Shown: positions 15,177 through 50,529 of the stretch, one piece after another | Layout: the number at the start of each line of letters is the position of its first letter | How positions within the stretch are numbered: position 1 is the stretch's first letter | Assembly (NCBI RefSeq): GCF_000013345.1 | Contig: NC_007777.1 | Coordinates: 1,798,001-1,862,000, forward strand | Origin: Frankia casuarinae | GTDB lineage: Bacteria; Actinomycetota; Actinomycetes; Frankiales; Frankiaceae | Reading direction: 5' to 3' | DNA length: 64,000 nucleotides | The notes under the pieces: model-generated | What the model saw: the letters and a program-made list of their open reading frames with translations, nothing else | Told to the model about the DNA's origin: nothing | The model's database searches: none | Position numbers and translations under genes: made by a program

Positions 15177-15805
15177 ATGGCCACGATCGAGGCGCTCACG
15201 GTGACGCCGTCTCCGGCCGTGACGCCGTCTCCGGCCGTGACGCCGTCTCCGGCCGTGACGCCGTCTCCGGCCGTGACGCCGTCTCCGGCCGTGACGCCGT
15301 CTCCGGCCATGGTGGCGGAGCCGGATCAGGGCTGGTGCGCGCGGTTGGACCCGGCGGTCCGCCCGGATGGATGCGACCGGTCCGTTGATCCGTTCGCGGT
15401 CGGTCCGGGGGGTGCACCAGAGGCCGCCGGGACCCTCACGATCGCCGAGGCCGCCGCGGCCACCGGAGTCAGCGCGCACACGCTGCGGTACTACGAGCGG
15501 GCGGGGCTGATGCGGGACCCGGTCGCCCGTGCCTCGTCGAGCCATCGGCGCTACACCGTCGAGGACGTCCGCTGGGTCACGTTCCTGACCAAGCTGCGGC
15601 TCACCGGCATGCCGATCCGGGAGATGGCGCGCTACGCCGAACTGGTGCGCGCCGGGGAGGGGAACGAGGCGGAGCGTCTCGCCCTGCTGACCGAGCATCG
15701 CCGCCGGGTCCTGGCGCGCCTCGACGAGGTGCAGCGCAACCTCACCGCCATCAACGTCAAAATCAGCATTTATCAGGACATCTACCAGGAGAGGGTCGTC
15801 CGCTG

Positions 15806-16984: not shown

Positions 16985-19900
16985 TCAGGCGTCGCCGGTG
17001 GGACCGTCCTCCAGGTCGCCCTCGGTACGCAGGTACAGCTCCTGCAGCGCGTCGAGGGTCGCAGCCTCCGGGTGCTCCCACAGGCCGCGCGCCGCGGCCT
17101 CCAGCAGCCGTTCGGTGATGCCGTGCAGCGCCCAGGGGTTGGACTCGGCGAAGAACTTCTGGTTCTCCGGGTCCAGTGCGTAGGTTGTGGCGAGCCGTTC
17201 GTACATCCAGTCCGCGACCACGCCGGCGGTGGCATCGTAGCCGAACAGGTAGTCGACGGTGGCGGCCATCTCGAACGCCCCCTTGTAGCCGTGCCGGCGC
17301 ATCGCCGCGAGCCACCGCGGGTTCACCACCCGGGCGCGGAAGACCCGGGAGGTCTCCTCGGACAGCGTTCGGGTGCGGACCGCCTCCGGCCGGGTGCTGT
17401 CGCCAATGTAGGCAGCCGGCGCCCGGCCGGTCAGCGCGCGTACGGTTGCGACCATGCCGCCGTGGTACTGGAAGTAGTCGTCGGAGTCGGCGATGTCGTG
17501 CTCGCGGGTGTCGACGTTCTTCGCGGCGATGGCGATCCGCCGGTAGGCCGACTCCATGTCCTCCCGGGCGGGGGTGCCGTCGACCCCGCGGCCGTAGGCG
17601 TAGCCGCCCCACGTCGCGTATACCTCGGCGAGGTCGGCGTCATCGCGCCAGTTCCGGCTGTCGATCAGAGGCAGCAGCCCGGCGCCGTACGCCCCCGGCC
17701 GGGAGCCGAAGATACGCAGGGTGGCCCGCCGTTCGTCGCCGTGCCCGGCGAGGTCCGCACGGGCATGGGCGCGCACGAAGTTGTCCTCGTCGGTCTCGTC
17801 GAGGCCGGCGGCGAGCCGGACCGCGTCGTCGAGCATCGCCACCACGTACGGGAACGCGTCCCGGAAGAAGCCGCTGATGCGCACGGTGACGTCGATGCGG
17901 GGCCGGCCGAGCTCGGCGAGGTCGATCGGTTCGAGCCCGCTGACCCGCCGCGACGCTTCGTCCCAGGTCGGACGGATGCCGAGTAGGGCGAGCACCTCGG
18001 CCACGTCGTCGCCGGAGGTGCGCATCGCGCTGGTTCCCCAGGCGGACAGGCCCACCGACTCGGGCCAGGTGCCGGTGTCGGCCCGGTACCGATCGAGCAG
18101 GGAGGTCGCCATTGCCTGGCCCGTCTCCCAGGCGAGCCGGCTGGGGATGGCCTTCGGGTCGACCGAGTAGAAGTTCCGCCCGGTGGGCAGCACGTTGACC
18201 AGACCCCGCAGCGGCGAGCCGCTGGGACCGGCCGAGACGTAGCCGCCGTCGAGGGCGTGCAGCACGGCGGTGACCTCGTCGGTGGTCCGGGCGAGCCGCG
18301 GCACGATCTCCGTGGCGGCGAACCGCAGCACGGCCGCCACCGTCTCCCGGACCGGGTCGGTCTCCGCGTCCGCGTCCATGCCTGCCGGGCCGTGGACTTT
18401 CCTTGCCTTTCCAGAGGCTTTTGTGTCCGGTTTATCCCTCTGGATAGGCAAGGGGGGCAAGGGGATGGTCGCTGGCGAGGGAGGGGGGACGAGGACGGTC
18501 GTCACCACGTCGGATGCGGCCGACGGGTCCCAGGCGCGTTCCTCCATCGCCGTTACCAGGGCGAGCGCCGTCGCCTCGGCGGCGTCGACCGTGCCGCGGG
18601 CCGCCCGGTCGTCCTCGACGAGCCCGAGGGCCTCCCGCAGCCCCGGCAGGGTGACGCGCCCGCCCCACATCTGCCGGGCCCGCAGCATCGCGAGCACCAG
18701 GTTGATCCGCGCCCCGCCGGTCGGTGCTTCGCCGAGCACGTGCAGGCCGTCGCGGATCTGCGCGTCCTTCACCTCGCACAGCCACCCGTCGACGTGCAGC
18801 AGGAAGTCGTCGAACTCGGCGTCGTGCGGCCGGTCGGTCAGTCCCAGGTCGTGATCGAGCCGGGCGGCCTGGATCAGCGTCCAGATCTGCGCCCGGATGG
18901 CCGGCAGCTTCGCCGGATCCATGGCGGCGATGGTGGCGTGCTCGTCGAGCAGCTGTTCCAGGCGGGCCAGGTCGCCGTAGCTCTCCGCGCGGGCCATCGG
19001 CGGAACCAGGTGATCGACCAGGGTCGCGTGCGCCCGGCGCTTCGCCTGCGTGCCCTCGCCCGGGTCGTTGACGAGGAACGGGTAGATCAACGGCAGGTTG
19101 CCGATCGCCGCGTCGGTCGGACAGGACGCGGACATGCCCACGGTCTTGCCGGGCAGCCACTCCAGCGTCCCGTGCTTACCCAGATGGACGACGGCGTGCG
19201 CGCCGAAGCCGCCGGAACTATCGGAGCCGCCGGAGCCGCCGGCGAGCCACCGGTAGGCGGCGAGGTAGTGGTGGCTCGGCGGCAGGCCGGGATCGTGATA
19301 AATGGCGACCGGGTTCTCCCCGAAGCCGCGTGGCGGCTGGACCAACAGCACGATGTTGCCGGCCTGCAGCGCGGCGAGCACGATCTCCCCGTCCGGATTC
19401 GCGGACCGGTCGACGTACAGCTCGCCGGGCGCGGGCCCCCAATGCCGTTCGACGCTCTCCCGCAGGTCGGCGGGCAGGGTGTCGAACCACGCCCGGTACC
19501 GCGCCGCGCTGATCCGGACCGGGTTGCCGGCGAGCTGCTCCTCGGTCAGCCAGGCCGGATCCTGCCCGCCCGCGGCGATGATCGCGTGGATCAGGGCGTC
19601 ACCGTCCTCGGCCGTGACCCCCGGCAGCGCGTCCGGGCCGTCGTCGGGCCCGATGTCGTATCCAGCCGCGCGCATCGCCCGCAGCAGGCGCACGACGCTC
19701 GCCGGGGTGTCGAGGCCCACCGCGTTGCCGATCCGGGAGTGCTTCGTCGGGTAGGCCGAGAGCATGAGCGCCACCCGGCGTTCGGCCGGTGGGACGTGCC
19801 GCAGCCGGCCGTGCGCGACGGCGATGCCGGCCACCCGGTCGGCGCGTTCGGTGTCGGCGACGTAGCTTGTCAGCCCATCCGCATCGATCTCCTTGAAGGA

Positions 19901-21079
19901 GAACGGCACGGTGATCAGGCGCCCGTCGAACTCGGGGATCGCCACCTGTGTCGCCGCGTCCAGCGGGGACAGCCCGTCGTCCGACTCCGCCCACGTCGCC
20001 CGGCCGCTGGTCAGGCACAGTCCCTGCAGGATCGGGATGTCCAGCGCGGCCAGCGCGCCGACGTCCCACGCCTCGTCGTCGCCTCCGGCGCAGGAGTGCG
20101 CCGGCTGGCTGCCACCCGCGGCGAGCACGGTGACGATCAGCGCGTCCGCCCGCCCGAGGGTGGCGAGCAACTCGGGTTCGGCGGCGCGCAGCGACGCGCA
20201 GTACACCGGCAGCGGATCCCCGCCGGCACGCTCGACCGCGGCACAGAGTGCCTCGACGAACGCGATGTTCCCGGCGACGTGGTGCGCGCGGTAGTACAGG
20301 ACACCGATGACCGGCCGCACCGCGACCGGCCGCACCGCGACCGGCCGCACCGCGACCGGCCGCACCGCGACCGGCCGCACCGCGACCGGCCGCACCGCGA
20401 CCGGCCGCACCGCGTTCCCCGCGAGGACGTCCGGGACGTCCCGGCTGGCTGATGCGTCCGGGGTGGCTGATGCGTCCGGGGTGGCTGATGCGTCCGGGGT
20501 GGCTGATGCGTCCCGGCTGGCTGATGCGTCCGCGGCCCGGTCGAGCACCCCCCAGGCCGGGATGGTCACCGGTGGGGCGAATCCGGTACCGGACAGTAGC
20601 AGGGTGTCGGCGAGGAATCGGTGCAGCTCGCCGAGGTTGGCCGGACCGCCCTGGGTTAGGTAGGCGTGTGCCTCGGCACAGATGCCGCCGGGCACCGTGG
20701 AGACGGCCATGAGCTCCGCGTCCGGGGTCTGTTCGCCACCGAGCACGACCACCGGGCGCGGGCCGGCGAGCAGCGTGTCGAGCCCCTCCTCCCAGGTCCG
20801 CCGGCCGCCGAGGATGCGCACCACGACCGCATCGGCACCGCTGGTCAGCGCCGGGAGATCGGCGACGGAGAGCCGGGCCGGGTTGGCGAGGCGGTAGCTG
20901 GCTCCGCTCGCCCGCGCGGAGAGTAGGTCGGTGTCGGACGTCGACAGCAGCAGGACGACCGCGTCAACCTCCGTCTCCCCGGCTCCTGGTGTCTCCCCGG
21001 CTTCGCGGGCGAACGCGGTCGACGGATCGTCGGAAGGGTCGTCGGACGGATCGGTGGGAGGAGTCTGCACAGGCGACAT
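16985..21079 (-). CDS. cobN: cobaltochelatase subunit CobN
   Basis: A 1364-residue CobN, the large subunit of the aerobic ATP-dependent cobaltochelatase that inserts Co(II) into hydrogenobyrinic acid a,c-diamide. The start is the ATG at 21079 with GGAAAGG upstream. Family landmarks include GVLYYRAHHVAGNIAFVEAL, the H-subunit block HLGKHGTLEWLPGKTVGMS, and FFAESNPWALHGITERLLEA near the C-terminus. Residues 180-257 carry two minisatellite inserts (DASATP and RPVAV repeats) that explain part of the excess length over a typical CobN of about 1200-1300 residues. CobS and CobT partners are not in this window. It is preceded by a cobalamin riboswitch, so expression should fall when B12 is abundant. 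Confidence 0.93.
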   Translation of the reverse strand: MSPVQTPPTDPSDDPSDDPSTAFAREAGETPGAGETEVDAVVLLLSTSDTDLLSARASGASYRLANPARLSVADLPALTSGADAVVVRILGGRRTWEEGLDTLLAGPRPVVVLGGEQTPDAELMAVSTVPGGICAEAHAYLTQGGPANLGELHRFLADTLLLSGTGFAPPVTIPAWGVLDRAADASASRDASATPDASATPDASATPDASASRDVPDVLAGNAVRPVAVRPVAVRPVAVRPVAVRPVAVRPVAVRPVIGVLYYRAHHVAGNIAFVEALCAAVERAGGDPLPVYCASLRAAEPELLATLGRADALIVTVLAAGGSQPAHSCAGGDDEAWDVGALAALDIPILQGLCLTSGRATWAESDDGLSPLDAATQVAIPEFDGRLITVPFSFKEIDADGLTSYVADTERADRVAGIAVAHGRLRHVPPAERRVALMLSAYPTKHSRIGNAVGLDTPASVVRLLRAMRAAGYDIGPDDGPDALPGVTAEDGDALIHAIIAAGGQDPAWLTEEQLAGNPVRISAARYRAWFDTLPADLRESVERHWGPAPGELYVDRSANPDGEIVLAALQAGNIVLLVQPPRGFGENPVAIYHDPGLPPSHHYLAAYRWLAGGSGGSDSSGGFGAHAVVHLGKHGTLEWLPGKTVGMSASCPTDAAIGNLPLIYPFLVNDPGEGTQAKRRAHATLVDHLVPPMARAESYGDLARLEQLLDEHATIAAMDPAKLPAIRAQIWTLIQAARLDHDLGLTDRPHDAEFDDFLLHVDGWLCEVKDAQIRDGLHVLGEAPTGGARINLVLAMLRARQMWGGRVTLPGLREALGLVEDDRAARGTVDAAEATALALVTAMEERAWDPSAASDVVTTVLVPPPSPATIPLPPLPIQRDKPDTKASGKARKVHGPAGMDADAETDPVRETVAAVLRFAATEIVPRLARTTDEVTAVLHALDGGYVSAGPSGSPLRGLVNVLPTGRNFYSVDPKAIPSRLAWETGQAMATSLLDRYRADTGTWPESVGLSAWGTSAMRTSGDDVAEVLALLGIRPTWDEASRRVSGLEPIDLAELGRPRIDVTVRISGFFRDAFPYVVAMLDDAVRLAAGLDETDEDNFVRAHARADLAGHGDERRATLRIFGSRPGAYGAGLLPLIDSRNWRDDADLAEVYATWGGYAYGRGVDGTPAREDMESAYRRIAIAAKNVDTREHDIADSDDYFQYHGGMVATVRALTGRAPAAYIGDSTRPEAVRTRTLSEETSRVFRARVVNPRWLAAMRRHGYKGAFEMAATVDYLFGYDATAGVVADWMYERLATTYALDPENQKFFAESNPWALHGITERLLEAAARGLWEHPEAATLDALQELYLRTEGDLEDGPTGDA
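20309..20413 (-). repeat. 15-bp in-frame minisatellite in cobN (seven units)
   Basis: GACCGGCCGCACCGC on the plus strand repeats seven times without interruption and is read on the minus strand as RPVAV repeats at about residues 222-257 of CobN, just before the conserved VIGVLYYRAHH block. Confidence 0.95.
20451..20540 (-). repeat. 18-bp in-frame minisatellite in cobN
   Basis: GATGCGTCCGGGGTGGCT and close variants repeat four to five times (plus-strand reading), giving DASATP/DASASRD repeats at about residues 180-209 of CobN. Confidence 0.9.
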
Positions 21080-21104
21080 GGTGATGCCTTTCCCGGGGGT
21101 CCAC

Positions 21105-21217
21105 GCCCCGCGTCGGTGGCCGTGCCTGGGGCGCACTCCCCGGTGACGGTGGCGGGACCGCACCGGATTCGCATCGGATTCGCACCGGACTTCCTCGCCG
21201 TTCGCCGCTCGTGGCCC
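21105..21217 (-). ncRNA. cobalamin riboswitch upstream of cobN
   Basis: The minus-strand leader contains the conserved cobalamin-riboswitch core: GAGGAAGTCCGGTGCGAATC, then GCGGTCCCGCCACCGTCACC, flanked by paired GCCACGAGC and GGCACGGCCACC segments. The expected order is GGTGC-AATCC-GCGG-CCCGCCAC. Here an 11-nt piece of the core (GCGAATCCGRT type) is duplicated at 21162-21172 and 21173-21183 on the plus strand. The leader ends about 25 nt before the cobN ATG, so ligand binding could mask the ribosome site GGAAAGG. Exact ends are approximate. Confidence 0.8.
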
Positions 21218-21223
21218 CGTCAC

Positions 21224-21252
21224 GATCGCAGAGAGGTGGGCGGTGTTGTCAA
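21224..21252 (-). promoter_or_regulatory. probable cobN promoter
   Basis: TTGACA (minus strand, 21252-21247) is followed after 17 bp by GCGATC (21229-21224), a weak -10. Transcription would start near 21217, just ahead of the riboswitch. Confidence 0.45.
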
Positions 21253-21311
21253 GCACTCCGCTGTCGTCGTGACAAAGAAACGATCAACCGGCATCGCCCG
21301 AGTCCGGCACG

Positions 21312-21326
21312 TATGCTCCGCCGGTG
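21312..21326 (+). promoter_or_regulatory. -10 box of a probable leaderless cobG transcript
   Basis: TATGCT at 21312-21317 ends 6 nt before the GTG start of cobG at 21324, and no Shine-Dalgarno sequence precedes that GTG. Divergent from the cobN promoter and outside the riboswitch. Confidence 0.4.
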
Positions 21327-22769
21327 CCCACCAGTCCGCGGGAGCGTGTCCGCGACGCCTGCCCCGGTGTGCTGACGACGCATCCGGCCGCGGACGGCGC
21401 GCTCGCGCGGCTGCGGCTGCCCGGGGGCCGGCTGACCGCCGCCGCGGCGAAGACCCTCGCCGGCTGCGCGCGGGAGTTCGCCGACGGCCACCTTGAGCTC
21501 ACCTCCCGGGCGAACGTGCAGCTACGCGGCCTGGCCGACGGCACGGCCGAGGAGCTCGCCGCCCGGGTGAGCGCGGTTGGCCTGCTGCCCTCGACGACGC
21601 ACGAGCGGGTCCGCAACATCGTGGGCTCGCCGCTGTCCGGACGCGGCGAGGCCGGCTGCCGGGACATCGCGCCGGTCGTCGCCGAGCTGGACCGCCGGCT
21701 GTGCGCGGATCCGGCTCTCGCCGCGCTGCCCGGCCGGCTGCTGTTCGCCGTCGACGACGGCAGCGGGGACCTGGCCGGGCTGCCCGCGGACCTCGCGCTG
21801 CGTGCCCTGCCTTCCGGGGAGATGCTGCTGGCCGTCGCGGGCGCGACCCGCGCGCTGCGGTTGCCCGTCCACGTCGCCGTACCCGCGCTCCTCGCCGCGA
21901 CGCGGGCCTTCATCGAGGCCCGCGCCGCGGCGGGCACCGCCGCGACGGCCTGGCGGATCGCCGAGTTGCCGGGCGGACCGGGCGGACAGGACGGCCTGCT
22001 CGCGGCTGCCGCGACCGAGGCCGGGGTCGTTGGGATCGTCCAGGCCGCTGGAATCGCTCAGGCTGCTGGGAGCGCCACCGTTCGGGCCGGCGCGTGGCCC
22101 GGTCCGCATCCGCAGCGTGATGGCCGCCGGGCGTTGACCGTGCTCGTCCCCCTGGGGCGGCTGAGCGCCGACCAGCTCGACCTGCTCACCGCCGCCGCGG
22201 CGGCCGGTGGTGGTGACGGTGCTGGCGGAGCGGGCGATGCCGAAGACGGCGTCCTGGTTGTGACGCCGTGGCGGTCCGTCGTGCTCCGCGATCTCGACCC
22301 GGCCGAGGCTACCCGGTGGTCGAGGGCGGCGGCGGACGCGGGCCTGGTCGTCGATCCGGCATCATCCTGGGTCGGCGTGACGAGCTGTGCCGGTCGGCCG
22401 GGATGCGCCCGGGCGTTGGCGGATGTCCGCCGCGACGCGGCGGTGTCCGTGCGGATCCGAGCTGACGACCCGTCGGCGCCGACGCACCCGGCCGGGAGGC
22501 CGCGAGCCCTCCCACCCGTCCCGGTTGGCCCGGCCCTCGCGCCGGTGCACTGGTCGGGTTGCGAGCGGCGCTGCGGGCAACCGGGAGGACGGGTGGTGGA
22601 GGTTGTGGCGACCGGGTCCGGCTACCGGATCCGTCGGACGGGTCTCGGAGCCGCCGCCGTCGCATCCGTCGGAGCGGATGGCGGTGAGGCGACGGTCGTG
22701 TCGTCGAGCCCCGTCGACGGTCACCGGGACCTGGCCGCGGCCGTCAGGTCGGCGAGGAGGCTGGCATGA
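21324..22769 (+). CDS. cobG: precorrin-3B synthase CobG
   Basis: A 481-residue protein of the nitrite/sulphite reductase ferredoxin-like family. CobG is the oxygen-using monooxygenase that forms precorrin-3B, a mark of the aerobic cobalamin route. Two ferredoxin-like half-domains are visible ([20 protein letters not shown] and [13 protein letters not shown] near the N-terminus, with [16 protein letters not shown] in the second half). The [4Fe-4S]/sirohaem-type cysteines are in [12 protein letters not shown] (about 351) and SGCERRCG (about 411). The last four bases overlap cobH (ATGA). Alanine- and glycine-rich insertions lengthen it slightly. Confidence 0.92.
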
Positions 22770-42146: not shown

Positions 42147-45100
42147 GTGCACAGGTTCGAGGACCGCTGGGTGGTTTCCGCCAGTGATCTTGTCGACGTC
42201 GTCGAGTGTGGGCATCGCGTCGGGCTTGCGCACGCGCTCGCCGCCGGGCTGGTGACCGGGGAGACGTCGGAGAACGGGCCGCGCCGGATCGACCGGGTGC
42301 GCCTGACCCCCGCGGACACCACTGCCGTGCGGCACGGCGAGGCGCACGAACGACGCTGGCTGGAGCATCTGCGCCGGTGTTTTGGCGCGGACGGGGTCGT
42401 GGCGATCGAGCGGCCCGCCCCCACGCTCGCCGCCCTGGCCCAGGCCCACGAGCGGACCCGCCAGGCGTTGGCCGCCGGGGTTCCCGTCGTCTACCAGGGG
42501 GCGCTGTTCGACGGCGCGTTCCAGGGGCGCCCCGACTTCCTCATCGCGGCGCATCTCGACCCGGTCGCCGGCGCATCGACCGGGCCCGCGGTCGCGGGCC
42601 GTTACGAGCCCTACGACGCCAAGCTCGCCCGGCACGCCAGTCCGGGAGCCGTGCTGCAGCTCGCCGCCTACGCGGCGGCCTTACCGTCGGTGGGCGTACC
42701 CGTTCCGCGGTTCATGCATCTGCTGCATCCCGCGCAGCGGGCCACCGCTCCAGAGCCAGAGCCAGAGCCCGCGCTCGGGGTCGGGGTCGGGGTCGGGGTC
42801 GTGCGCACGTTCCGGGTCGACGATGTCGTGCCGATGGTCGGGCACGCGCGCAGCCGTCTCGCCGATCGGCTGGCGGCTGCCCCCGCGGTTCCCGAACCGT
42901 CCTGGGCCGAGCCCCGGTCGGCCTGCGCCACCTGCGCGTTCAGCGCGCACTGCGCGCGCGGCCGGGCGGAGGCCCGCGACCTGTCGCTGGTCGCCGGGCT
43001 GCGCGGCGACCAGCGACAGGTGCTGCGCGCGGCCGGCATCACCGCGGTGGAGGAGCTCGCCGCGGCCCGCGACGACCAGCGGCCCGCGACGATGTCCCCG
43101 GCGACGTTCGCGGGACTGCGTCTTCAGGCGGAACTGCAGGCCGGGCAGGATGCGACGCGTACCGCGGACGACCCGGTCGGGACGGTGACCGTCCGGATGA
43201 CCGGCCCGGAGGGTCTCGCGGCCCTTCCGGTGCCCGATCCCGGTGACATCTACTTCGATATGGAGGGCGATCCGTACGCGCTGGACGCCGCCGGTCTGGA
43301 GTACCTGTTCGGCGCGGTCACCCTCGCGGACGGCGAGCTCTTCCGGGCGTTCTGGGCACACGATCGGGCGGGGGAGCGGCAGGCGTTCGAGCGTTTCGTC
43401 GACTGGGCGACGGAGCGGTTGCGCGCGCACCCCGGCGCGCACATCTACCATTACGCGCCCTACGAGCCGAACGCGTTGCGCCGGCTGGCCGCGCGACACG
43501 GCACGCGGGAACGGCAGGTAGACGATCTGCTCGCCGGGCACCGGCTGGTGGATCTCTACGCCGTGGTCCGGCGCAGCCTGCGGATCTCCCAGCCGTCCTA
43601 CTCGATCAAATACCTCGAACCGCTGTTCCTGCCCGGTGCCCGACAGGCCGAGGTGAAGAACGCCACCGACAGCATCGTGGCGTACGAGAGCTTCCTGGCA
43701 CACCGCGCCGCCGGGGAGCTCGCCGCGGCCGACCGCGTCCTCGCTCAGATCGCCGACTACAACCGGATCGACTGCGTGTCGACCCACCGACTGCACCGCT
43801 GGCTACTGGGCCTGCGGGGGGCCGACGGCGGCACGCCGCGGATCGACACCGCTGCCGCCGTTGACACCGCTGCCGCCGTTGACACCGCTGCCGCCGTTGA
43901 CACCGCTGCCGCCGTTGACACCGCTGCCGACGCCGCCGACGACGCGCTCGTCGACGCCGCCGACGACGCGCTCGTCGACGCCGCCGACGACGCGCTCGTC
44001 GACGCCGCCGACGACGCGCTCGTCGACACCCTCGTCGCGGGCCTTCCCGACGATCCGGCCGACTGGACGGGAGACGAGCGGGCGCGCGCCCTGCTCGCCG
44101 CGGCCGTCGGATACCACCGGCGTGAGAACAAGCCCGCCTGGTGGTCGTACTTCGCGGCGCTGACCGCCGATCGCGCCACGCTGGAATCGGCCGACGACTG
44201 CGCGGTCCCGGTGAGCTGGACCGTTGTCGAGGACTGGGTCGAACCGGCCGGGCGACGGCGGCGGAGTCGTCGACTGCTGCAGGCCCGCGTCGATCCGGAC
44301 CGTCCGCATCCCTTCGACCGCGGCGAGGCGGTGCGGCTGCTCTACCCGGGACCGCCCGGGGCCGAGGGCGCCACCACCGACGCGGTCGTCGAGCGAGCCG
44401 AGCCGCACACGCTGCTGCTGCGGGAGAGCGTCGCCCCCGACGGCGTGGCCCGCAGGCCGCCCCTCGCCGTGCTGCCCGGATCGCCGGTGCGTCCGGAACC
44501 CAAGCCGGCGGCGATCCGCGGCCTCGCCCGCCGGACCGCCGACGCCCTGCCGGACCTGCCCGCGGACCCCGCGTTGGACCTGCTGCGACGTCGCCCCCCG
44601 CGGCTGGTCGGCCGGGACGACCTGCCGGCGCCCGGCGAGCACGACGGAGACCAGATCGCCGCCGTGCTCGCCGCGGTGAGCATGCTCGACGGCTCCTACC
44701 TGGCCGTGCAGGGGCCGCCGGGGGCGGGCAAGACCTACCTCGCCGGCAGGCTCATCCGCCATCTCGTCGAGCAGGGGCGCACGGTCGGGGTCTGCTCGAC
44801 CAGTCACAAGGCGATCGAGAACGCGATGCTCGCCGCGACCGGCCAGCCGCCGGCGGACCCGAAGCCCGCGGACGCCCGGGCCGCGGACGCCCGGGCCGCG
44901 GACGCCCGGGCCGCGGACGCCCGGGCCGCGGACGCCGTGCCCGCCTGGCGCCCCGCGGTGCCCGCCGCGAAGAAACAGCGGTCCGGGGCGAGGCCGGCTT
45001 CGGCGGCTTCGGGCATGTTCCCGCCCTGGGATGGTCCGCGGGATCTGCGGGCACTCGCGGCGTGGCGCCGGGAGCACCCCGAGGGCCACCTGGTCGGGGA

Positions 45101-47793: not shown

Positions 47794-50529
47794 ATGCCGT
47801 CGTTCGCTGATCCGGCGCAGCAGCGCGAATCCCGACCCGATCGGGTGACGTATGCCGCGTTGTCGCACGGACGGGACGAGGGGTCGCACGGACGGGACGA
47901 GGGGTCGCACGGACGGGACGAGGGGTCGCACGGACGGGACGAGGGCTGGGCCGACCGCGGCCCCGCGTCGGCGGGCTCCACCGGCGCACCACCCCGTTCG
48001 CTGTTCACGATGGTGGCTGACGCGGCCGTCGTGTACCGGGGAAGGGTACTCGCCGCCGCCTGCCTGCTGGTGGTCGTGCTGCTGCCGTGGAATGCCGGAA
48101 TCTACGACCAGCTCGCCACCGGTGGTTTCTACGCACCGGGCGATCCGTCGACGCGGGCTGAGCGGCTGCTCGACGAGGAGTTCCCGGACGCGCCCCCCGA
48201 CGTCGCCATCATGCTGACGTCGGCCCCGGGTATCGACGGGCCGATCGCCGCCCGCCTGGGCCGGGAGCTCACCGGGCGGATCGCCGCGGAGCCGGGGGTG
48301 ACCTCGGTGCTGTCGTACTGGCCGGGCGGGCCCAACGAGGCGAGCCCGCTGCTGCGTGCGAAGGACGGCCGGTCGGCCCTGATCGTGTTCCGGCTCACCG
48401 GTTCCGAGGACCGCATCCAGCACCGCCTGAACGCCCTGCACGACCGGTACGCCCACGATGGTCCGGGGGTCCAGGTCCGGTTCGGCGGGGCGCCCGCGGT
48501 CATGCGTGATGTGACCGAGCGCAGCCGTGTCGACCTGGCGCACGGTGAGCAGATCTCCGCTCCGCTGGTGTTCCTCGTGCTGCTCTACGCCTTCGGCACG
48601 GTCCTGGCCGCCCTGCTTCCGGTCCTGGTCGGCGTGGTGTCGGTGGTGTCGAGTCTCGCGCTGCTGCGGCTGGCGGCCACGCTCACCGACGTGTCGGTCT
48701 TCTCGGTGAACCTGACGACTGCCCTCGGATTCGGTCTCGCAGTCGATTACAGCCTGTTCATCTTGCGACGTTTTCGGGACGAACGGGACCGCGGGCTGCT
48801 CCCGGCGGCGGCGCTGCGCCGGACGCTGGAGACCGCCGGGCGCACGGTGTTCTTCTCCGGGGTGACGGTGGCGCTGTCCCTGACGGCCGCGCTGGTCTTC
48901 CCGATCTATTACCTGCGTTCGTTCGCCTTCGCCGGCATCATCGTCGTCGTCGCATCGGAGGTGGCCGCACTGCTCGTGCTGCCCGCGGCGCTGATGGTGC
49001 TCGGTGACCGCATCGAGCGCGGCAACGTCCGGCTGGCGTTGTCGCGCCTGAGACGCTCGGGGTCACGCCCCTCGGGTCGCCGGCGGTCCGGTGGCCACCG
49101 CGTGGGGGCCTCGGCGGCTGGCCGCGGCTGGTCGGCGCTGGCGCGGCGGGTCATGCGCCACCCGGTGTTCTTCGGTGGGGTCGCGATCTTCGTGTTGGTG
49201 CTGTGTGCCGCCCCGCTGCGCCACCTCGACCTCGCGCTGGCCGACGACACGGTCCTGCCGGCGACCGCGGAGGCTCACGTCGTCAACGACGCGATGCGGG
49301 AGGACTTCGTCGTCTGCCTGTCCTGCCAGATTCCGATCGTGGTGCCCGGAGTGGACGCGCGGGACCCGGGGAGCGCCGAGAAGCTGACCGACTACGCGAC
49401 CCGCCTGTCCGCGCTGCCGGGCGTTGCCCGCATCGACACCGTCACCGGCAGCTTCCTGCGGGGCGAGCGGGTCGGTGTGGTGCCGAAGACTGCGATGAGG
49501 TACGTCGGAACGCACCGCGGCGCCTGGCTGTCGGTGTGGCAGACCGACAGGTCTCCGCTGTCCGAGTCGGCGAAGGACCTGGTGCGGAGGCTGCGGGCGG
49601 CACCGGCGCCGTTCGGCGTCCTCATCGGCGGACTCGCGCCGCACTTCCTCGACACCTCGCATTCCATCAAGCGGAGTCTGCCGCCGGCCTTCGCCGTCGT
49701 GATGACGGCGACCTTCATCCTGCTGTTCCTGTTCACCGGCAGCGTGCTCCTTCCGCTGAAGGCGATGTTCCTCAACACGCTGAACCTCGCTGCCACCGTC
49801 GGGCTGCTGGCGTTCGTCTTTCAGGACGGACACCTGACCGGTCTGGTCGGCGACTTCCAGGTGTCGGGCACGCTGGAGATGACCAGCCCGGTCCTGATGT
49901 TCTTCATCGCGTTCGGGCTCAGCATGGACTACGAGATCTTCCTGCTCGCCCGCATCCGCGAGGAGTACCTGCGGACGGGAGACAACCGCGATTCCGTCGC
50001 CCGTGGGCTGGGGACGACCGGTCCACTGATCACGAGTGTGGCGCTCGCTCTCATCGTGGTCATGGTTGCGCTGTCCGCGTCGGACATCAGCATGATCAAA
50101 TTGGTGGGTATCGGGCTGACCGTGTCGATCGTGCTCGACGTGACCCTCGTTCGAGCGATCCTCGTCCCGGCGTTCATGGCCCTGGCGGGCGACTACAACT
50201 GGTGGGCTCCCGAGCCGCTGCGCCGTCTGCACGCGCGGTTCAGCCTGCGGGAGGGCGGCGACGAAGCGGCCTCGCACGCGGGGGACCCGGGGCCCGGGGG
50301 ACCCCCCGACCCCGGGGGACACTCCGACCCCGGCAACCGCATGACGACGAAGATCATTTATCGGCGGGGGCGGGGAGAACCTACCCGAGGGGCCCGGCCG
50401 CCGGTCGGGCCGGCCCCGACCTGGCACTACTACCTGCGCCCGCGGCGGCGCGCGGACGGTGGGCCCTTACCGGCCATGATGGGTATCCGGGGTTTCGCAC
50501 TCGACGACATCCGCGTCGAAAGCGCATAG
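47794..50529 (+). CDS. MMPL-family RND transporter
   Basis: A 911-residue membrane protein; AAGGAG lies 6 nt before ATG 47794. The cytoplasmic N-terminus carries a GSHGRDE repeat (21-bp minisatellite). The MMPL/RND layout is clear: first helix VVYRGRVLAAACLLVVVLLPW, a periplasmic loop, a helix cluster with FGLAVDYSLFILRRFRDERD, then a second half with VFFGGVAIFVLVLCAAPL, a loop and a cluster with FGLSMDYEIFLLARIREEYL. The two GL(A/S)xDY motifs carry the proton-relay Asp-Tyr pairs. These pumps export lipids or lipophilic compounds by proton motive force. Substrate unknown. The C-terminal tail is Gly/Pro-rich and hydrophilic. Confidence 0.9.
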   Translation: MPSFADPAQQRESRPDRVTYAALSHGRDEGSHGRDEGSHGRDEGSHGRDEGWADRGPASAGSTGAPPRSLFTMVADAAVVYRGRVLAAACLLVVVLLPWNAGIYDQLATGGFYAPGDPSTRAERLLDEEFPDAPPDVAIMLTSAPGIDGPIAARLGRELTGRIAAEPGVTSVLSYWPGGPNEASPLLRAKDGRSALIVFRLTGSEDRIQHRLNALHDRYAHDGPGVQVRFGGAPAVMRDVTERSRVDLAHGEQISAPLVFLVLLYAFGTVLAALLPVLVGVVSVVSSLALLRLAATLTDVSVFSVNLTTALGFGLAVDYSLFILRRFRDERDRGLLPAAALRRTLETAGRTVFFSGVTVALSLTAALVFPIYYLRSFAFAGIIVVVASEVAALLVLPAALMVLGDRIERGNVRLALSRLRRSGSRPSGRRRSGGHRVGASAAGRGWSALARRVMRHPVFFGGVAIFVLVLCAAPLRHLDLALADDTVLPATAEAHVVNDAMREDFVVCLSCQIPIVVPGVDARDPGSAEKLTDYATRLSALPGVARIDTVTGSFLRGERVGVVPKTAMRYVGTHRGAWLSVWQTDRSPLSESAKDLVRRLRAAPAPFGVLIGGLAPHFLDTSHSIKRSLPPAFAVVMTATFILLFLFTGSVLLPLKAMFLNTLNLAATVGLLAFVFQDGHLTGLVGDFQVSGTLEMTSPVLMFFIAFGLSMDYEIFLLARIREEYLRTGDNRDSVARGLGTTGPLITSVALALIVVMVALSASDISMIKLVGIGLTVSIVLDVTLVRAILVPAFMALAGDYNWWAPEPLRRLHARFSLREGGDEAASHAGDPGPGGPPDPGGHSDPGNRMTTKIIYRRGRGEPTRGARPPVGPAPTWHYYLRPRRRADGGPLPAMMGIRGFALDDIRVESA
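47863..47946 (+). repeat. 21-bp in-frame minisatellite at the MMPL N-terminus
   Basis: Four units beginning TCGCACGGACGGGACGAG encode SHGRDEG repeats before the first membrane helix. Confidence 0.95.

Follow-up and report, generated by a model that had tools for sequence, protein, structure and literature searches.

The leader of cobN in Frankia casuarinae is very probably a decaying cobalamin riboswitch, a truncated and duplicated pseudo-riboswitch, and cobN would seem from its sequence to have been freed from B12 repression. The stretch of DNA analysed, referred to here as the window, is 64 kb long and spans positions 1798001-1862000 of a genome assembled as one contig of 5,433,628 bases; for F. 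casuarinae the evidence of both duplication and deletion comes from this one finished genome. The cobN gene encodes a cobaltochelatase subunit and occupies 16985-21079 on the minus strand as an intact frame of 1364 amino acids with its ATG at 21079 (NCBIfam TIGR02257, 1076 bits against a cut-off of 822; Pfam PF02514). The leader lies on the same strand, between cobN and a divergent plus-strand cobG-like gene (21324-22769; TIGR02435, 219.6 bits, slightly below the cut-off of 234.8), a neighbour that most of the tested Frankia loci have next to cobN and that serves as a synteny anchor. Reading towards cobN, the minus-strand leader consists of a putative -35 element, TTGACA (21247-21252), common to all 11 Frankia leaders aligned, the retained 5' half of a cobalamin riboswitch (21116-21216; GGCCACGAGCGGCG ... 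GGCGAGGAAG ... GCGGTCCCGCCACCGTCACC ... CCCCAGGCACGGCCAC), recognised by alignment with intact Frankia orthologs, a deletion junction at 21115/21116 (GGCCAC/CGACGCGGGG) and a remnant of the leader 3' end (21080-21115; CGACGCGGGGCGTGGACCCCCGGGAAAGGCATCACC). Both this remnant and its Shine-Dalgarno sequence, GGGAAAGG at 21094-21087, are conserved among Frankia leaders, and the junction is 36 nt from the cobN ATG, so that the leader precedes a B12 biosynthesis gene. A scan for the sigma-70 consensus gave no full promoter at the cobN leader, and the -35 element is assigned on its conservation. An open frame running from a GTG at 21256 raised the question of whether the leader might be an N-terminal extension of cobN, but this was ruled out by the conserved Shine-Dalgarno sequence and ATG at 21094-21077.

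No cobalamin riboswitch exceeded the Rfam cut-off in the 64-kb window. Under permissive settings the leader scored 17.5 bits against RF00174, short of the gathering threshold of 31.5, in an alignment where 5 nt replace 76 model positions and the outer helices contain many non-pairs; no other Rfam family was matched convincingly in the same permissive search. A sequence-only reading of this DNA had annotated 21105-21217 as a cobalamin riboswitch, and although its range agrees very closely with the retained 5' half (21216-21116) and the derivation from a riboswitch holds, the sub-threshold score does not sustain the annotation as such. The leader retains the conserved 5' core (GGAA, P5/L5 and GCGGnCCCGCCAC), to which an insertion in P5/L5 has added 11 nt. 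In the relatives CCCCAGGCACGGCCAC is followed by the GGGAAGGC segment and then, in four of the five, by a B12 box such as GAGCCGGGATACTCGGC, whereas the leader here jumps at 21116/21115 to CGACGCGGGG...CCCGGGAAAGGC and then the ATG. The segment that in the orthologs holds the 3' strands of P1, P3 and P6 is thus deleted, and the four-way junction P3-P6 is incomplete. A B12 box (RAGYCMGGAGACC-like) was sought in the leader, where the best place had 6 mismatches and all 300 of 300 shuffled sequences did as well; in AgB32, G012, G008 and F. canadensis it occurs with 0 mismatches, 78-199 nt before cobN, and none of 300 shuffles was as good. The distance from TTGACA to the ATG is 176 nt, compared with 288-486 nt in full-length leaders. 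Conserved features of cobalamin riboswitches include the B12 box and a four-way junction, P3-P6, that surrounds the ligand (PMC11260477); since the aptamer here is without its 3' strands, ligand binding is very unlikely.

The duplication that first drew attention to this leader is real. Two 11-nt copies, identical at 10 of 11 positions and differing at one base, lie in tandem at 21183-21162 on the minus strand, the first (GCGAATCCGAT) at 21173-21183 and the second (GCGAATCCGGT) directly after it at 21162-21172, in the order GGCGAGGAAGTCCG GT GCGAATCCGAT GCGAATCCGGT GCGGTCCCGCCACCGTCACCGG; Tandem Repeats Finder (TRF) reports a period of 11 and 2.8 copies at 21159-21189. Tandem 11-mers that match at 10 or 11 of their 11 positions occur 2 times in the window, near the 1.3 expected under a first-order Markov model, so counting alone cannot exclude chance and homology was used instead. 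Alignment with five orthologous cobN leaders (AgB32, G012, G008, G007 and F. canadensis), each of which has one copy, places exactly 11 extra nt in the leader of F. casuarinae. The insert falls within the conserved core, as had been stated, where it extends the P5/L5 hairpin and duplicates L5. The intact leaders already contain a period-11 near-repeat across P5, TCCGGTGCGAA then TCCGGCGCG, and replication slippage on it with the addition of one unit is probably the simplest origin of the duplication. The F. casuarinae genome abounds in short tandem duplications, to judge from the 85 TRF rows in the window, some of them inside cobN itself; many of the units are multiples of three with copies that are 100% identical (e.g. 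15201-15308, 43845-44027 and 47862-47945). At 20309-20532 cobN has two in-frame tandem arrays, a 15-nt unit repeated 7.1 times (100% identical) and an 18-nt unit repeated 5.3 times, which encode repeats of VRPVA and DASATP; the linker that contains them shows poor alignment with the CobN proteins of other Frankia.

An important consideration is whether the doubled hairpin could belong to a cobalamin riboswitch that still works, albeit in an unusual way. The sequence-only reading had supposed that one copy is looped out or that ligand binding is altered, and a long L5 might be thought to affect both binding and the L5-L13 kissing loop. This kissing loop is central to regulatory switching in cobalamin riboswitches (PMC9600662). 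The core is preserved in the bases that surround the duplication, and the Rfam model needs no gap to place the second copy as P5/L5, with GCGAA of the first copy in place of GGGAA. That reading had held that its proposal would fall if a covariance alignment paired the second copy without an insertion. The RF00174 alignment formally does so, but its register is the score-optimal one and, from comparison with the orthologs, not the homologous one. What tells against a working riboswitch is the absence of the B12 box and of the strands closing P1, P3 and P6, together with the low RF00174 score; in published work the B12 box and the four-way junction P3-P6 are described as conserved and as binding the ligand (PMC11260477). 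With the 3' half of the aptamer deleted, there is no complete aptamer of which either copy could form part. A working riboswitch is therefore regarded as very doubtful. An attempt was made to assign L13 by eye to the loop ACGCGGAU of the intact leaders, but in such GC-rich leaders the assignment was not convincing.

Comparison with the cobN leaders of relatives, which had been suggested as a check, showed the duplication to be absent from them and exposed the missing 3' half here. The Frankia orthologs score 40.3, 40.0, 34.8, 31.2 and 29.0 bits against RF00174 at the same position. The leaders of AgB32, F. canadensis, G008 and G012 share with that of F. casuarinae the syntenic place between the divergent cobG and cobN, the promoter region, the 5' half (GGCGAGGAAGTCCGG...GCGGTCCCGCCACCGTCACCGG) and the Shine-Dalgarno region, but the latter leader differs from them in its extra 11 nt in P5/L5 and in lacking the GGGAAGGC segment, the B12 box and P1'/P3'. 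The G007 leader (L101:382-505) has lost its B12 box whilst the rest looks fair, and it still scores 40.3 bits; such an above-threshold match is probably non-functional, which calls for caution in automatic annotation. Decay of the element has occurred repeatedly in the genus. In QA3, F. tisae and F. gtarii the 3' half is missing and the core is degenerate with point mutations, in G001 (probably F. alni ACN14a) the core is gone and GGAAG is followed directly by CCCGGGAAAGG, and in F. torreyi the whole riboswitch element is absent. These five leaders resemble that of F. casuarinae in lacking the 3' half whilst keeping promoter and Shine-Dalgarno sequence, but their cores are mutated or deleted, they have no duplication and their junction points are different. 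In G005 and G009 the assembled contigs end short of the 5' end of cobN. Trees of rpoBC and cobN place the F. casuarinae genome outside both the F. alni and the F. canadensis groups (support 51-91), and this placement outside the F. alni group, taken with the differing deletion points, makes at least two independent losses of the cobN riboswitch within Frankia likely, though not proven. Amongst the outgroup actinobacterial cobN loci sampled 13 of 14 have a cobalamin riboswitch at or above the gathering threshold (41-98 bits), so that its presence at cobN is probably ancestral. In other Frankiaceae genera a cobalamin riboswitch match was found near cobN in only 1 of 19 loci, so that the riboswitch has often been lost in these genera as well, unless the organisation of cobN is different there.

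Substitution rates were compared between a 58-nt stretch of the core and the 4-fold sites of cobN. Among leaders with an intact core the core differs by 2-7%, against 31-35% at 4-fold sites, which indicates strong constraint, whereas in decayed leaders the core has changed faster than the 4-fold sites (21% vs 13% for QA3 and F. tisae, 11% vs 5% for F. tisae and F. gtarii), which indicates that constraint has gone. The core of the F. casuarinae leader differs from the intact ones by 9-10%, against 37-40% at the 4-fold sites of cobN. Its 5' core is thus still well conserved, which points either to a recent loss or to remaining constraint; the low rate is the one observation that leaves residual function possible. 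It might be explained if the truncated leader had some other regulatory role, for instance in RNA stability or translation or in response to another ligand or regulator. In single-sequence folding what is left of the leader is no more stable than shuffled sequences (z -0.08), which gives this role no support from unusual stability, although the intact F. canadensis leader does no better and folding is uninformative at such GC content. The failure of other Rfam families to match also counts against it, as does the loss or mutation of the remnant in QA3, F. tisae, F. gtarii, G001 and F. torreyi, where promoter and Shine-Dalgarno sequence are kept, and such a role is considered improbable. There is also the suggestion that the 3'-truncated leader with its doubled L5 is still a regulatory RNA, a minimal or re-purposed sensor of B12 or cobalt, which would likewise account for slow substitution in the 5' core but is given very little credence. 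The most likely interpretation is that cobN has lost B12 control and has gained no unusual sensor.

Loss of control at cobN might have come about as follows. The ancestral Frankia cobN leader would have been a full-length cobalamin riboswitch, from which a deletion in F. casuarinae would have removed the 3' half of the aptamer, comprising the B12 box and the strands closing P1, P3 and P6. F. canadensis has a direct repeat at both ends of the segment missing here (CGGCC.ACTGACGCGGG / CGGCCGGCTGACGCGGGG), and the deletion may have ended within such imperfect repeats (CGGCCAC.TGACGCGGG and CGGCCGGCTGACGCGGGG in F. canadensis); inferred from this living relative, they would explain it. Slippage on the TCCGGTGCGAA/TCCGGCGCG near-repeat would have added one unit to P5/L5, whilst promoter and ribosome-binding site stayed, and cobN would now be translated constitutively, expressed without repression by an adenosylcobalamin riboswitch, other B12 genes keeping theirs. 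What appeared to be a puzzling insertion may thus be read as part of the decay of a riboswitch. The cobN leaders of this single genus form a series from complete, via truncated and mutated, to fully erased, with promoter and ribosome site kept, and they constitute natural deletion mutants with which to ask what control of cobN is worth. No description of cobN riboswitch loss in Frankia was found in the literature searched, nor does the transcriptome paper on strain CcI3 (PMC3188489) refer to any cobalamin element.

The F. casuarinae genome has other leaders of the same family, also with B12-related targets. Cobalamin riboswitches above the cut-off and with complete 3' ends precede bluB (102.3 bits) and a gene for a putative cobaltochelatase subunit with cobO after it (32.3 bits; 3' end AGCCAGGATACTCCGG). 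A compact cobalamin-type leader, below threshold at 21.5 bits, precedes the cobalt transporter genes cbtB/cbtA (L263, G000:C1:3836456-3836580). The retention of these three indicates that B12 sensing has been lost locally at cobN and not in the cell. As the genes for CobO and for the putative partner subunit of the cobaltochelatase retain a riboswitch and cobN does not, the subunits are predicted to respond differently to B12. The cbtBA leader (L003/L263) is short and resembles the class-II type, and since the cobN leader is short as well it might be asked whether it too is a cobalamin riboswitch of the compact class-II type and not a class I element that has been truncated. This is scarcely credible, as the cobN leader contains no B12 box whatever and its retained part aligns with the full-length orthologous leaders and not with a compact design.
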